Shown one piece after another: positions 2,613 to 50,264 of a stretch of DNA of 61,640 nt. A model generated the notes under the pieces. It was given only the letters and a program-made list of their open reading frames with translations. It was not told the DNA's origin and did no database searches. The DNA lies in NCBI GenBank assembly GCA_025963465.1, contig JAOQAP010000211.1, positions 1 to 61,640 on the forward strand. Direction: 5' to 3'. The position numbers were made by a program, and so were the translations under genes. Source of the stretch: Flavipsychrobacter sp. (lineage in GTDB: Bacteria; Bacteroidota; Bacteroidia; Chitinophagales; Chitinophagaceae). Positions within the stretch are counted from its first letter, which is position 1. Each line of letters opens with the position of its first letter.

Positions 2613-3510
2613 GAAACAGGGATTGGGTAAGGGCATCCGCGCACTGCTGGACACGATAGATGAGGAGATGTCATCGAAAGATGCAGTACCTGCAGCTACG
2701 GGCCAAAATACCGTTACCGCTACCGCACGTATACCTCTAGACCAGATAATAGTAAATCCCAAGCAGCCACGTCATGATTTTGATGAAACGGCGCTGAAGG
2801 AATTATCAGAAAGCATAAAGCTGCACGACATCATACAGCCGGTAACGGTCGTGAAGGTGGGACATAACCAATACCAGCTTATATCGGGAGAGCGCAGATT
2901 GCGTGCTTCCAGGTTGGCGGGGCTGGCAGATATACCTGCATACGTACGTACCGCAGACAGCCAGGGCATGCTGGAAATGGCACTGCTGGAAAACCTGCAG
3001 CGTGAGAACCTTAATGCCATAGAAATAGCGCTGAGCTATCGCCAGCTGATGGACGAATGTGGCCTGAACCAGGAACAGGTATCTGAACGAATGAAGAAGG
3101 AGCGCAGCACAGTAGCTAACTACCTGCGTCTTTTAAAATTGCCGCCTGATGTGCAGAAGTCTGTACGCGATGGTGAGTTGAGTATGGGACATGCAAGGGC
3201 TATCATAGGCCTTGATCATATAGAACAACAGTTATACGTATACCGTGAGACAATACAAAAGGGATTGTCTGTGCGCCAGGTAGAGCAGATGGTGAAGGAC
3301 ATGGCGAGTGAAAAGACACCATCAGGTAGTCTTCCTAAATCGTTGCCTGCTAAGCTACCGCCTGCATACAAGCGTATAGAAGATAACATGGCTTCCCATT
3401 TTTCTACAAAGGTGAAACTGGACAGGAAAAAGACAGGGAAGGGTAGTATTCATATTGAGTTCTATAATGATGAGGACCTGGAGCGTATCATGGATATGAT
3501 GAAGCTGTAA
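2590..3510 (+). CDS. parB: Chromosome-partitioning protein ParB/Spo0J
   Basis: 306-residue ParB. An N-terminal basic ParA-interaction segment (GLGKGIRALL, residues 11-20) is followed by the ParB/Srx nuclease-like domain with the CTP-binding box GERRLRA (100-106), then the central helix-turn-helix region (about 145-180, including KKERSTVANYLRLLKLP) and a short C-terminal dimerisation domain. In the canonical model it loads at parS and slides as a CTP-gated clamp. The ATG at 2590 overlaps parA; the next ATG at 2596 is an equally possible start and gives a two-residue shorter protein. Confidence 0.95.
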   Translation: MSMAQINKKQGLGKGIRALLDTIDEEMSSKDAVPAATGQNTVTATARIPLDQIIVNPKQPRHDFDETALKELSESIKLHDIIQPVTVVKVGHNQYQLISGERRLRASRLAGLADIPAYVRTADSQGMLEMALLENLQRENLNAIEIALSYRQLMDECGLNQEQVSERMKKERSTVANYLRLLKLPPDVQKSVRDGELSMGHARAIIGLDHIEQQLYVYRETIQKGLSVRQVEQMVKDMASEKTPSGSLPKSLPAKLPPAYKRIEDNMASHFSTKVKLDRKKTGKGSIHIEFYNDEDLERIMDMMKL

Positions 3511-9096: not shown

Positions 9097-9921
9097 CTAT
9101 TGACGGGTTTTGAAATAGAAAGTGACGTCTCCTGATTGTTCCGGTTCAGATCCGTTACTGGCGCTGAATTTAACTGTATTTATTTTTTCCAGTGCCAGTT
9201 TTGTCAGCTGGGGGCTCGATGTGCTTTTTACCCTTTTATTAATAATAGCACCGCTTTTGTTTACGGTAACATGTATGACCACTTTACCGCTTTCGCTGAA
9301 CTCCGCCTCAAATTTCTTAGGATAGATATCTCTGCCGGTAAGTGTGTGGCCTATACCGCCGGTACCATCACCGGGTATGCCTGTATAGTTTGGTGCGCCG
9401 GGTGTGCCGCCGGGAACTCCCCTGTCGCCGGGACCATGCGTATTACCTTCACTGGTGCCCGGGCTGTTCTGTGCTGCGCTATTGCCACCGGGGCCATGAT
9501 CGCCTGCATAGGCATATTTAGGTTTTTCCTGTGGTTTGGTAACAGGCTTATTTTCTATCGCAGGTGTTGGTGCGTTATTCTTGTGTCTTGTATTGTCTAC
9601 TTCAGGTGCATCGGGTTCCGTGGTCTGCACGATCTCTTTGGGGAGACTGCTGGTCACAGCAGCGCTTTTGAATACAACAGTAGCCTGGTATGCTGCCGGA
9701 GCCTTCTTAGACATTGGCTGGTTCTTGCCGCTGCCATTATCACTAGTGCCGAGGTTTACCTCTATGCCTCCACTGTCCACAGTAGGCACTGCGAGTACGG
9801 GAGGTGTTACCGTATAGCTGAGCAGTATGAACAACAATAACAACAATGCATGCACACCTACCGTCCATAGGGCGGCCTTTGTGTTGAACGCAGGTTGCTG
9901 TTGTTGCTGTATAGCTATCAT
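9097..9921 (-). CDS. TonB-like energy transducer
   Basis: 274 residues: short cytoplasmic N-terminus, one membrane helix (about 18-42, VGVHALLLLLFILLSY), a Pro/Gly/Asn-rich periplasmic linker (about 60-190), and a C-terminal TonB domain (KVVIHVTVNKSGAIINKRVKSTSS onward). It would carry proton-motive energy from ExbB/ExbD to outer-membrane receptors. No exbB or exbD gene is seen next to it in this window, though these usually precede tonB in Bacteroidota. Its downstream partner is folC. Confidence 0.8.
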   Translation of the reverse strand: MIAIQQQQQPAFNTKAALWTVGVHALLLLLFILLSYTVTPPVLAVPTVDSGGIEVNLGTSDNGSGKNQPMSKKAPAAYQATVVFKSAAVTSSLPKEIVQTTEPDAPEVDNTRHKNNAPTPAIENKPVTKPQEKPKYAYAGDHGPGGNSAAQNSPGTSEGNTHGPGDRGVPGGTPGAPNYTGIPGDGTGGIGHTLTGRDIYPKKFEAEFSESGKVVIHVTVNKSGAIINKRVKSTSSPQLTKLALEKINTVKFSASNGSEPEQSGDVTFYFKTRQ

Positions 9922-10004
9922 TCAGAATAAAAGTAGGTAAAAATACAGAATGTAAAAGTTAAAAATCAACTTAAATGGCTGAAAAACGCATGCCCAATAG
10001 CGAC

Positions 10005-10063
10005 TGTCATTTCGCAATGGAGCGTAGCCTGTATAACAGTCAAGCGAAATGGAGAAATCTCCT
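10005..10063 (-). repeat. Interspersed palindromic repeat, copy A (inverted)
   Basis: Begins TGTCATTTCGCAA and ends GGAGAAATCTCCT. It is the reverse complement of copy B at both ends (about 14 bases each), with a diverged middle. A and B could form a long stem of about 170 nt. Confidence 0.75.
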
Positions 10064-10114
10064 GAAGATTTGAATTGTGGCTTAATGCCTTGATTTGGTC
10101 AATTGCAGATGCTT

Positions 10115-10175
10115 AGGAGATCTCTCCACTACGCAATCCGGCGGAGCCGGAGTTTTGCTTCGTTGCGAGATGACA
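10115..10175 (+). repeat. Interspersed palindromic repeat, copy B
   Basis: AGGAGATCTCTCC at the left end, central hairpin TCCGGC-GGA-GCCGGA, then TTTTGCTTCGTTGCGA and GATGACA, followed 17 bases later by a seven-T run. Same orientation as copy C. The shared segment extends beyond the core: TGCAGATGCT before it and GGCTCTATT after it also resemble copy C. Confidence 0.8.
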
Positions 10176-10207
10176 GGCTCTATTGGATTTTTTTGTGTTG
10201 TGTTCTT

Positions 10208-10501
10208 TTAACTTATTTCATCCCAGAGGTCTTTCCAGTCGGGGTTCATGGAATTGATGAGCTCTATTTTCCTGGATCTGCTTAATTTCTTTACTTTTTT
10301 CTCGCGGATTATTACGTCTGTTATATGACCGTGATGTTCATAATAAACGAGAAATTCAATATTGTAGCGAGCGGTAAAGCTGTTCTTATAAAAATGGGTT
10401 TTATGTTGGTCTGTTCTTCCAACAAGATCTGAGGTCATGCCAGTATAAAGGACTGTGCGATGTGCATTGGTCATTATATAGACGTGTCCGCCCTTTTGCA
10501 T
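10208..10501 (-). CDS. GIY-YIG nuclease-family protein (single domain, UPF0213/YhbQ-like)
   Basis: 97-residue single-domain protein. The GIY and YIG strands are VYI (about 8-10) and YTG (near 20-22); the conserved Arg follows in DLVGRTDQHK. The catalytic Glu is in IIREKKVKKLSR and the C-terminal Asn in MNPDWKDL, so the active site looks intact. These small proteins are common in Bacteroidota, often in several copies, with unknown role. The gene is flanked by direct copies (B and C) of a palindromic repeat with a third inverted copy beyond, which suggests linked mobility or a shared function. Confidence 0.88.
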   Translation of the reverse strand: MQKGGHVYIMTNAHRTVLYTGMTSDLVGRTDQHKTHFYKNSFTARYNIEFLVYYEHHGHITDVIIREKKVKKLSRSRKIELINSMNPDWKDLWDEIS

Positions 10502-10588
10502 ATTCTGTCCGTTTATGCTAAAGTATGGTTTTTTGTTTGCTGCCGCAATAGGGAGTCAGTGCCCCGGTTCGGCTAACTGCGGATGCTC

Positions 10589-10650
10589 AGGAGATTTCTC
10601 CACTTCGCAAATCCGACTAACGTCGGAGTTTTGCTTCGTTGCGAAATGAC
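10589..10650 (+). repeat. Interspersed palindromic repeat, copy C
   Basis: AGGAGATTTCTCC, then TTCGCAA, central hairpin TCCGAC-TAAC-GTCGGA, then TTTTGCTTCGTTGCGAA and ATGAC. Against copy B the fifth stem pair is A-T instead of G-C, a compensatory change that keeps the stem. It lies between the radical SAM gene stop and the start of the GIY-YIG gene. Confidence 0.8.
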
Positions 10651-10668
10651 GGTTCTATTTTTCTTTTT

Positions 10669-11952
10669 TTAGTGGGCGAAATCTGTTTCAAAATTCTTCA
10701 TCCTTTCTATTGGTGGGTTGAAGTAGCCGAATTTTACGTTGGGGAATTCTTCGTGAATGAGCTCCATCATTTGCTTTACGCCCAAACAGTCACCTATTTC
10801 ACCTATGCCCATATTGCCGAGGTACCAGTCCGGGTCAATGTTGAAGCTGCGCCATTGTATCATGCTGAGGTCGGTTGTGATGATCAGCTCGCGGAGCGCT
10901 TCATATTCTGCTACGCTGTCTGTCATGCCGGGGAAAACGAAGTAGTTGATAGATGCCCAGCCGCCGTGTTTCCTTACCACACGCAGGCTTTCTACGATGT
11001 CTTCAAACTTGTAGTTGTTAGGGCGGTAATACTTAGTGTATATGTCTTCCTGTGCTGAGTTAAGGCTTACTCGTATGCTGTTAAGCCCGGCCTGCATGAG
11101 TTGCTCTACGGCTGCCGGTTTGCTGCCATTAGTATTTATGTTGATGCTGCCTTTCTGCGTGTGCTTGCGTATCTCTATTATAGATTCTTTGATCGTTTCC
11201 CACATGAGCAATGGTTCGCCTTCGCAGCCCTGTCCGAAGCTGACGAGCGGGTAGGGAGCAGTTTCCAGGTGTGGTACCGTAAACTCTACGATCTCTGCGG
11301 CAGTTGGTTTGAACTGCAGCCTGTCCTGTGGAGATATGATTGTTTCCTCCTCGGGCTGGAAGGATATGCAGCCCATGCAGTTGGCATTGCAGGCAGGTGA
11401 TGTAGGTATCGGGCATTCCCAACGGCCCATGAAATAGTTCTTTGCCGCTGGGCAGTCGTAAGTGAGGGCGCAGTTCTCGGCAAGGTGTTTTACAAGCCTG
11501 TTGTGCGGGTATGCTTTCATCAGCACTTCTACGCCGTGCTGCACTTTGCTGTCATCATAGCCTTTTGCTTCCTGGCGTATATCGCGCTCTATGCGTATGG
11601 CGGGTACATAAAATTTATCGTTGTGCCAGCCTGCTGCAACATAGCAGAACAGGGGCAGGGTAGGTGCATCTTCCAAAGCCTCGAAGGCTGCAAGATACAA
11701 GCCGGAATGTGCCGGTGGTATAAACGCAGCAACGGCCCAGCCTTTCAGGCACAGACGCATTTCGCCTGTCTTTACGTCCAGTCCTATGCCCCTGCGGCCA
11801 GGTAGCTCGTAAAGGTTGCCGCCTTCGGGCAGCTCCATCCAGTCCTCTTCAGGTATCGGCATGGCATCCCAACCACTACGCCCTACGCTATATAAAGACG
11901 TATCTTCAAATATCTTTCCCTCGCCATCAGAATACATTAAGTACGGACTCAT
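10669..11952 (-). CDS. Radical SAM protein of unknown substrate
   Basis: 427 residues. The iron-sulfur motif CNANCMGC (C188, C192, C195; CxxxCxxC) sits unusually far from the N-terminus. It is followed by family features including SFGQGCEGEPLL (SAM-binding GGE-like segment), SININTNGSKP and IRVSLNSAQ. The 180-residue N-terminal part has no recognised motif. Additional Cys lie just before the cluster motif (ENCALTYDCP, RWECP) and could hold another metal site. Substrate unknown; the gene stands alone between repeat copy C and a 59-bp gap. Confidence 0.85.
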   Translation of the reverse strand: MSPYLMYSDGEGKIFEDTSLYSVGRSGWDAMPIPEEDWMELPEGGNLYELPGRRGIGLDVKTGEMRLCLKGWAVAAFIPPAHSGLYLAAFEALEDAPTLPLFCYVAAGWHNDKFYVPAIRIERDIRQEAKGYDDSKVQHGVEVLMKAYPHNRLVKHLAENCALTYDCPAAKNYFMGRWECPIPTSPACNANCMGCISFQPEEETIISPQDRLQFKPTAAEIVEFTVPHLETAPYPLVSFGQGCEGEPLLMWETIKESIIEIRKHTQKGSININTNGSKPAAVEQLMQAGLNSIRVSLNSAQEDIYTKYYRPNNYKFEDIVESLRVVRKHGGWASINYFVFPGMTDSVAEYEALRELIITTDLSMIQWRSFNIDPDWYLGNMGIGEIGDCLGVKQMMELIHEEFPNVKFGYFNPPIERMKNFETDFAH

Positions 11953-12635: not shown

Positions 12636-12644
12636 AGAAAAAAC

Positions 12645-12672
12645 AACCCCAAACCCCTAAAGGGGCTTTCCC
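12645..12672. repeat. CCCCTAAAGGGG palindrome repeat, copy 1
   Basis: AACCCCAAACCCCTAAAGGGGCTT-type element; CCCCTaAAGGGG can fold into a short hairpin. The same element occurs twice, inverted, at 49678-49703 and 49747-49770. Confidence 0.6.
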
Positions 12673-12749
12673 ATATGGTTATTTCATTGCAATTAATTGT
12701 CTGGTCGTGCGTTAAATAATAAGATTGTATTTTTGATAAATAGCATTTT

Positions 12750-49661: not shown

Positions 49662-49669
49662 CAAATATA
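49662..49669 (-). promoter_or_regulatory. -7 box (TATATTTG) before the 118-aa gene
   Basis: Exact TAnnTTTG match on the minus strand, 19 bases upstream of the ATG at 49642. No well-spaced upstream TTG. Likely promoter of the 118-aa/TPR pair. Confidence 0.4.
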
Positions 49670-49677
49670 GTAATAAA

Positions 49678-49703
49678 AACCCCAAACCACTAAAGGGGCT
49701 TCC
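49678..49703 (+). repeat. CCCCTAAAGGGG-type repeat, copy 2
   Basis: AACCCCAAACCACTAAAGGGGCTT-type element, the inverse of copy 3 at 49747-49770 with one mismatch. The two could form a 24-bp stem with a 45-base loop between two genes of the same strand. Confidence 0.65.
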
Positions 49704-49746
49704 CCTCACAACTCTATAACTTAACGGGATATACAACAACAAGAGT

Positions 49747-49770
49747 AAGCCCCTTTAGGGGTTTGGGGTT
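49747..49770 (-). repeat. CCCCTAAAGGGG-type repeat, copy 3, overlapping a stop codon
   Basis: Inverted relative to copy 2 and same sequence as copy 1 (12645-12672) read on the minus strand. It contains the stop codon of the phosphoesterase gene and encodes its last residues (TTPNP). With copy 2 it probably acts as a terminator for the minus-strand phosphoesterase gene. Confidence 0.65.
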
Positions 49771-50264
49771 GTTCTCGGTCCAAGCTCTATCACTTCACAC
49801 TGCTTCATATCCTTGCCATCTATCACAAAGCGGATAAGGGTACGTACTTTATGCCAACCATGCACACCCGCAGCGCCGGGGTTCATGTGCAGGCATTTGA
49901 GCTTTTCATCAAACATTACCTTAAGTATATGGGAGTGTCCCGTAATAAAAAGCTTTGGTGGATCAGCATATAGTTCTGTGCGTATAGCTGGTACATACCT
50001 ACCGGGATAGCCACCTATATGCACCATCATTACATCCACTTCTTCGCAGGTAAATCTCAGTTTTTCAGGGTATTCCAGTCTTATATCCTGGCCATCTATA
50101 TTGCCATATACGCCACGCAACGGTTTGAAGGCTTTGAGCTTATCTGCAATGGCTGCAGTGCCAAAGTCGCCCGCATGCCATATCTCATCACATTGATCAA
50201 AGTGTTTGAATACAGCATCGTCAAGGTAGTTATGGGTGTCAGATATCAGGCCTATGCGGGTCAT
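49755..50264 (-). CDS. YfcE/MJ0936-type metallophosphoesterase
   Basis: 169 residues of the calcineurin-like fold. Metal motifs: ISDTHNYLDD (DxH), WHAGDFG (GDxx), YGNIDG (GNxD-like), VHIGGYPG and TGHSH. The length matches the small YfcE/MJ0936 phosphodiesterases, with no appended domain. The natural substrate of this family is generally unknown. The last five residues come from a repeat element that includes the stop codon. Confidence 0.85.
   Translation of the reverse strand: MTRIGLISDTHNYLDDAVFKHFDQCDEIWHAGDFGTAAIADKLKAFKPLRGVYGNIDGQDIRLEYPEKLRFTCEEVDVMMVHIGGYPGRYVPAIRTELYADPPKLFITGHSHILKVMFDEKLKCLHMNPGAAGVHGWHKVRTLIRFVIDGKDMKQCEVIELGPRTTPNP

Follow-up and report, generated by a model that had tools for sequence, protein, structure and literature searches.

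A likely Ssn-type cassette of a small GIY-YIG nuclease gene and CGTC-tagged hairpin repeats in Flavipsychrobacter sp.

We have analysed a 61,640-nucleotide stretch of DNA (hereafter, the window), one contig (G000:C73) of the draft genome of Flavipsychrobacter sp. (4.18 Mb, 277 contigs), and describe in it a locus that is likely to represent a small cassette made up of a single-domain GIY-YIG nuclease and CGTC-tagged hairpins recognised by this nuclease, with binding and cleavage being inferred. In our opinion, the locus most probably consists of a nuclease of the Ssn type and the REPs cognate to it, which were inserted as one cassette; neither cleavage nor mobility has been shown. In a wider survey, such hairpins were found to be closely linked to one GIY-YIG family in Bacteroidota and Proteobacteria, with examples in Paceibacterota, and the identity of the hairpin stem was found to track the protein and not the genome. 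The features of the locus are listed in Table 1.

Table 1. Positions and strands of the cassette, its components and the flanking genes, numbered from the first nucleotide of the window
Feature	Position	Strand	Remarks
GIY-YIG nuclease ORF	10208..10501	-	97 aa
Repeat A	10006..10061	+	TGTC tag; outer left edge of cassette
Repeat B	10116..10174	-	TGTC tag; stem ATCTC/GAGAT; inner hairpin TCCGGC/GCCGGA
Repeat C	10590..10650	-	CGTC tag; stem ATTTC/GAAAT; inner hairpin TCCGAC/GTCGGA; outer right cassette edge
Whole cassette A-B-gene-C	10003..10654	.	edges inferred from A and C
Radical SAM gene, flanking (host context)	10669..11952	-	
TonB_C-like gene, flanking (host context)	9097..9921	-	24.1 bits, just below Pfam cut-off 24.6

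Repeats A and B are mutually inverted and lie on the 3' side of the GIY-YIG gene, and C, in the orientation of B, lies on its 5' side. Read from the tag, A (plus strand) is GTC-ATTTC...GAAAT-CTC, B (minus strand) GTC-ATCTC...GAGAT-CTC and C (minus strand) GTC-ATTTC...GAAAT-CTC. The skeleton common to all copies consists of an unpaired GTC tag, a stem AT-N1N2N3, a loop, the complementary arm and C[T/C]. Two compensated pairs distinguish B from C: in the inner hairpin, a G-C pair of B is an A-T pair in C, and in the outer stem, ATCTC/GAGAT of B stands against ATTTC/GAAAT, which C shares with A. The initial annotation, made from the sequence alone, had described three palindromic elements around the gene, with A and B inverted and C oriented as B, as well as the compensatory pair in the inner hairpin; both claims held and the coordinates were confirmed, and the pair in the outer stem had been missed. 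DNA folds of both strands of each element beat those of shuffled sequences (z of -1.7 to -2.9). The outer stems of B and C are 5 bp long, their loops of 42-44 nt enclosing the second hairpin. The lowest-energy fold contains the outer stem in B (minus strand) and a lengthened version of it in A; that of C contains the inner hairpin and lacks the outer stem. Repeat A has an alternative pairing, ATTTCGC with an inner GCGAAAT, which is favoured by the fold, the other option being ATTTC with the GAAAT beside CTC.

The first of two strict patterns matched four copies in the genome, three of which belong to the GIY-YIG locus. The second recovered A and C, again the fourth copy, and an additional one, so that by the two patterns together the 4.18 Mb genome has five ATYTC copies. 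Backward-read controls of the strict patterns had no matches in this genome; over 36 genomes, the second pattern had one backward-control match. The genome also contains 15 short-loop copies with other stems (ATTGC, ATCGC, ATTCT, ATGCT and ATCTT), which differ from the stems of its two family genes (see below). A separate dispersed repeat of approx. 37-39 nt (AACCCC...AAAGGGGCTT) occurs in the window in three copies (12636-12680, 49669-49706 and 49735-49773), two of which form an inverted pair.

The window protein matches the Pfam GIY-YIG domain (PF01541) with 43.4 bits (cut-off 22.6), thus meeting the criterion for the superfamily, and no extra DNA-binding domain was found in its 97 aa by Pfam. 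Residues Y8, Y19, G21, R29, E67 and N86, invariant in 29 aligned proteins, are retained in it; conserved Tyr, Arg and Glu have catalytic roles in GIY-YIG domains. Position 73 is occupied by Leu, which is unusual. In an AlphaFold2 model (mean pLDDT 93.5), residues 73-74 are predicted to be located in a turn between helices 60-72 and 75-85. Among solved folds, the sole match at E <= 0.001 was the UPF0213 protein 1ZG2 (E 6.8e-4), with weaker matches to Slx1 (from E 0.09) and the UvrC N-domain (E 0.3). The sequence search of PDB with the window protein gave no match at E <= 1, and that of NCBIfam a single match with E 0.14.

Eight PF01541 matches were detected in the genome. Profile A1, whose 29 rows comprise only the window protein and relatives of it, gives more than 100 bits for two of them: the window gene and a second family gene, L002, which has its own repeat with the stem ATCCT. 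The window's own repeat was not found near other GIY-YIG genes of this genome. Outside the family, three small GIY-YIG genes (L001, L003 and L006; G000:C27, C203 and C253) each adjoin a tRNA gene (Asp, Arg and Ala, respectively) and have a direct repeat of the tRNA end, 35-78 nt long, on the far side of the gene, an arrangement that would fit the entry of each cassette into a tRNA gene.

The flanking radical SAM gene is present in 31/35 genomes of the genus. The radical SAM loci of 29 relatives were compared, and the TonB-like gene adjoins the radical SAM gene in ten of them. The gap between the flanking matches measures 59-264 bp in eight of these relatives and 416 and 815 bp in the other two (747 bp in the window), and neither a GIY-YIG gene nor a strict hairpin was found in the gap in any of the ten. 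With the gene and the repeats both missing, they were gained or lost together, the direction not being proved. Outside the cassette, the window has approx. 95 bp of spacer, which resembles the entire spacers of relatives; no target-site duplication was found, and the spacers of relatives are too diverged to reveal one. For the second family gene, support for insertion is one-sided only, since the genes downstream are not syntenic: the loci of its neighbour gene in 28 relatives have no adjoining GIY-YIG match (in one there is only 48 bp of room), and four of them carry a lone hairpin with a different stem 0.9-1.4 kb away. Three clustered ATCCT hairpins were also observed approx. 2 kb from this second gene (L419, G000:C205:19000-29500, positions 2732-3020).

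Homologues of the window protein were matched in 36/60 relatives, and the search of the phylum of the window, Bacteroidota, with profile A1 gave matches in 190/296 genomes. It should be noted that the loci fetched from the latter search favour close members of the family, having been taken from its best-scoring matches. The flanks of most fetched family genes contain one hairpin skeleton with many stems (ATTTC, ATTCC, ATTGC, ATCCT, ATGCT, ATTCT and others). In a set of 122 loci with 128 genes and 127 distinct proteins, hairpin density was 2.96 per kb at less than 250 bp from the gene, 1.80 at 250-500 bp and approx. 0.1 at more than 1.5 kb; with reversed sequences, 3 matches were obtained, vs 509 in the real ones. 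A strict hairpin lies within 500 bp of 97/127 distinct genes, and on both sides of 79; it is missing within this distance for 30 genes, some of which (L024, L026 and L031 among them) carry near-perfect copies escaping the strict rule. When all loci with at least 80 bits against A1 were considered, a hairpin was present within 500 bp of 177/218 distinct family genes, 41 having no strict hairpin within this distance (166/207 with a hairpin after removal of 11 genes reached via the dRS3 pattern, for which see below). As a negative control, small GIY-YIG genes outside the family were inspected, and a hairpin was near 1 of the 25. The copies closest to the gene show every one of the four possible combinations of orientation with it (counts of 26, 23, 17 and 13).

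As the scan itself demands complementary arms, pairing was recounted without requiring it, using GTCAT sites with an independent 3' anchor on the fetched loci. Full pairing was observed at 783/1705 sites, compared with a mean of 74 and a maximum of 98 for shuffled partners; with double sites removed, the figures were 779/1696, 73 and 100. All four Watson-Crick pairs were seen at both N1 and N2. A pattern with free stem letters had matches in 33 of 247 genomes and none in the listed backward controls. Among long loops, an inner stem of at least 5 bp was present in 66/246, vs 12% in shuffles.

The repeats were also found without the gene. The complete genome G061 contains 211 short-loop copies, its only GIY-YIG proteins being two large ones, which indicates that repeats can persist without the nuclease, and G260 has 15 copies and no A1 match (phylum search, in which part of the candidates were scored). 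Other arrangements were noted in passing. In G029, family genes are located head-to-tail, approx. 600 bp apart, three at L347 (G029:C1:166158-170648) and two at L027 (G029:C34), and at L027 the flanks were duplicated along with the gene. G540 and G384 have several short matches to the C-terminal part alone of the family profile (approx. 58-96 or 41-96), possibly shortened cassettes retaining the 3' end of the gene.

On a tree of 93 genes, the N2N3 label requires 27 changes, compared with at least 44 in 500 shuffles. Base by base, N2 clusters clearly on this tree (21 changes, against 38 or more in shuffles), and N1 (21 vs at least 22) and N3 (12 vs at least 12) only weakly. Same-genome paralogues with less than 60% identity share N2N3 in 1/25 pairs, proteins of the same range of identity from different genomes in 909/4016 pairs, and proteins with at least 60% identity from different genomes in 134/230 pairs. 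That the stem type follows the protein clade and not the genome points to cognate recognition; together with the related gene-repeat pairs of other bacteria, this makes it probable that the enzyme recognises its own repeat.

The initial annotation had suggested a REP/RAYT-like arrangement, in which the nuclease recognises, spreads or processes the element, and had asked for four checks. The genome copy count was run, with the result given above; enrichment near GIY-YIG genes was confirmed, within the family, and the stems were found to covary, so that neither of the two outcomes named by the annotation as refuting its idea was obtained; and, as to empty sites, the junction lacks gene and strict hairpin in all ten relatives with the flanking pair. 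Recognition of the element is well supported, and its spreading or processing remains an inference. The REP/RAYT-like idea holds by analogy only: the protein is no tyrosine transposase, and the repeats are CGTC-like and not the RAYT-linked GTAG type.

Column 73 of the alignment, just past the helix of Glu67, is exceptional in its association with N2 (z 30.9, against a median of 2.7). In the training set, N2 was C/T in 49 and a purine in 3 of the 52 cases with Trp73; with Gly73, it was G/A in 36 cases and a pyrimidine in one. The held-out set consisted of 60 further stretches from the two homologue searches (part of the matches not used before), plus other phyla; ten held-out loci came from loci or genomes picked by the dRS3 pattern, besides L383, which equals L254. 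The class of N2 was correct in 73/73 held-out Trp/Gly genes (62/62 Trp with C/T; 11/11 Gly with G/A). Held-out loci of the window's phylum comprised 57 distinct genes, 11 without a hairpin and 4 without the motif; Trp was found with C/T in 31/31, Gly with G/A in 5/5, and the six others (F, K) all had C. For the other phyla, with 39 genes (2 without a hairpin), the values were 31/31 for Trp and 6/6 for Gly. When all genes scoring at least 80 bits were pooled, the counts of pyrimidine and purine were 109 and 2 for Trp73, 1 and 42 for Gly73, 3 and 4 for F, and 3 and 1 for Y; K was found with 6 pyrimidines, T with one purine, and L, which is the window protein, with one pyrimidine. Among Trp73 genes, Lys72 was accompanied by C at N3 in 54/55, Gly72 by T in 19/27 and Asn72 by T in 9/16. 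The association is confounded with clade, since Trp/Gly switches number approx. three on the tree and independent pairs just 2-3 (sign test, p = 0.5). The paucity of independent switches, and Leu73 in the window protein itself, speak against a causal code.

We propose that the protein would bind the hairpin as single-stranded DNA, either of the lagging strand or taken up in transformation, and would nick it in the vicinity of either the GTC tag or the base of the stem; stem bases N2 and N3 would be read by residues 72-74, located where the catalytic helix ends. Nicking may promote the spread of cassettes and of solo repeats, through recombination or through transformation; alternatively, it may limit what incoming DNA recombines. 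Cleavage, strand choice and transposition are all inferred, and no biochemistry stands behind the mechanism. A bolder reading would regard the GIY-YIG family as the missing dedicated enzyme of the entire CGTC-REP superfamily, the nuclease and its hairpins as autonomous mobile cassettes ('GIY-REPtrons'), and the two helix-end residues as reading the stem by a simple code, in which Trp73 would mean a pyrimidine and Gly73 a purine at N2, and Lys72 a C at N3, with Gly72 or Asn72 oftener T. Taken jointly, these propositions are in our judgement rather less likely than not.

Of the rival explanations, the one that survives best, and that we nonetheless consider unlikely, is that the hairpins are operators or RNA attenuators/terminators by which the nuclease regulates itself, spreading as passengers only. 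In its favour are the copies close on both sides of 79/127 genes, the position of the copies between co-directional genes at the window locus, and the location of REPs mostly downstream of coding regions (PMC3733652). Against it are solo copies away from any family gene detected (L012 and L421), the presence of as many as 211 copies per genome, and the occurrence of the nearest copies in all four orientation combinations. According to a second explanation, the repeats are ordinary CGTC-REPs moved by an unrelated transposase, and the GIY-YIG genes are hitchhikers or insertion hotspots. G061, with its 211 copies and no small family gene, is consistent with this, and GIY-YIG domains have many other roles; however, the association is largely confined to the GIY-YIG family (1/25 other small GIY-YIG genes), the stem tracks the protein and not the genome, and an association of CGTC repeats with transposase genes is lacking (PMC3733652). 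We regard this explanation as very unlikely. Still less probable is a homing-type endonuclease targeting the junction, with the hairpins as recombination substrates only: the cassette is missing from the same junction in relatives and GIY-YIG domains do occur in homing endonucleases, but the protein has only 97 aa without an added DNA-binding domain by Pfam, and coevolution of stem and protein would not be expected if the junction were the target.

The survey of 2013 (Di Nocera et al. 2013, PMC3733652) left open which enzyme serves the CGTC-tagged REPs, one of two REP superfamilies, for which a dedicated transposase is apparently lacking. The present data tie CGTC-type repeats of Bacteroidota and Proteobacteria to one small GIY-YIG family, and lead to a two-residue hypothesis of stem reading, which is open to testing by means of oligonucleotides and point mutants. 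If true, a large class of intergenic repeats would gain a named partner, and the enzymes would represent single-strand nucleases of readable specificity. In the open-access literature searched, which leaves out most subscription journals, no paper linking GIY-YIG genes with such REPs was found.

In comparison with known systems, the window protein has the GIY-YIG fold in common with UPF0213 (1ZG2), Slx1 and the UvrC N-terminal domain; it differs in the linkage to hairpins, which were near just 1/25 small non-family GIY-YIG genes (UPF0213 members were not distinguished among the 25). With REP/RAYT systems (REPtrons), the locus shares an enzyme gene flanked by tagged hairpins thought to be processed by it, and solo copies elsewhere. 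RAYTs, however, are HUH tyrosine transposases with GTAG-tagged REPs (PMC3733652), whereas the window has a GIY-YIG protein and a CGTC/TGTC tag. In CGTC-tagged REPs, one end carries CGTC, or often TGTC or CCTC, in unpaired form; the first two stem pairs are AT, the stem has 8-9 bp and the loop 4-5 nt, with other loops allowed in some families (PMC3733652); CGTC-1 of Neisseria is dRS3, and Bacteroidetes are among the hosts (PMC3733652). Repeats A (TGTC), B (TGTC) and C (CGTC) resemble these in their unpaired tags, in the AT first pairs and in the heterogeneity of stems. They differ in the 5-bp outer stem of B and C and its loops of 42-44 nt with an inner hairpin, by which the length criterion is unmet, in copy number, with five strict ATYTC copies and 15 short-loop others not meeting the high-copy criterion, and in having a GIY-YIG partner.

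The closest relation is seen with Ssn. Chenal et al. (Nat Commun 2025) reportedly described Ssn as site-specific single-stranded DNA GIY-YIG nucleases with a repeat (NTS/dRS3) in Neisseria meningitidis and with thousands of homologues of differing specificity; the general fact of such differing specificities may thus already be published. A scan of public genomes with a dRS3-type 24-mer gave at least 120 loci, with many phyla among the titles, and a GIY-YIG match was present in 8/120, six with more than 90 bits at 3-95 bp from the 24-mer and two weak ones (34-35 bits) at least 800 bp away. One small GIY-YIG gene, of Neisseria dentiae (contig L209), reached 106.7 bits with profile A1; two inverted dRS3-type 23-mers lie on the same side of it, at distances of 39 and 116 bp, and the gene product we take to be a member of the Ssn family. 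In Paceibacterota, the family genes have ATCCT/ATTCT hairpins. The window pair differs from Ssn in its ATTTC/ATCTC stem, in the long loop with a second hairpin, in Leu73 and in the five strict copies of its genome vs the hundreds reported for Neisseria. It resembles Ssn in its single-domain GIY-YIG protein of approx. 100 aa and in the hairpin repeats near the gene, and the criteria for Ssn that are met are homology to the dRS3-associated GIY-YIG protein of Neisseria and the presence of the cognate repeats A, B and C near the gene. Judged by what the Ssn paper reportedly describes, and with cleavage of single-stranded DNA inferred, the assignment of the window pair to the Ssn kind appears likely.
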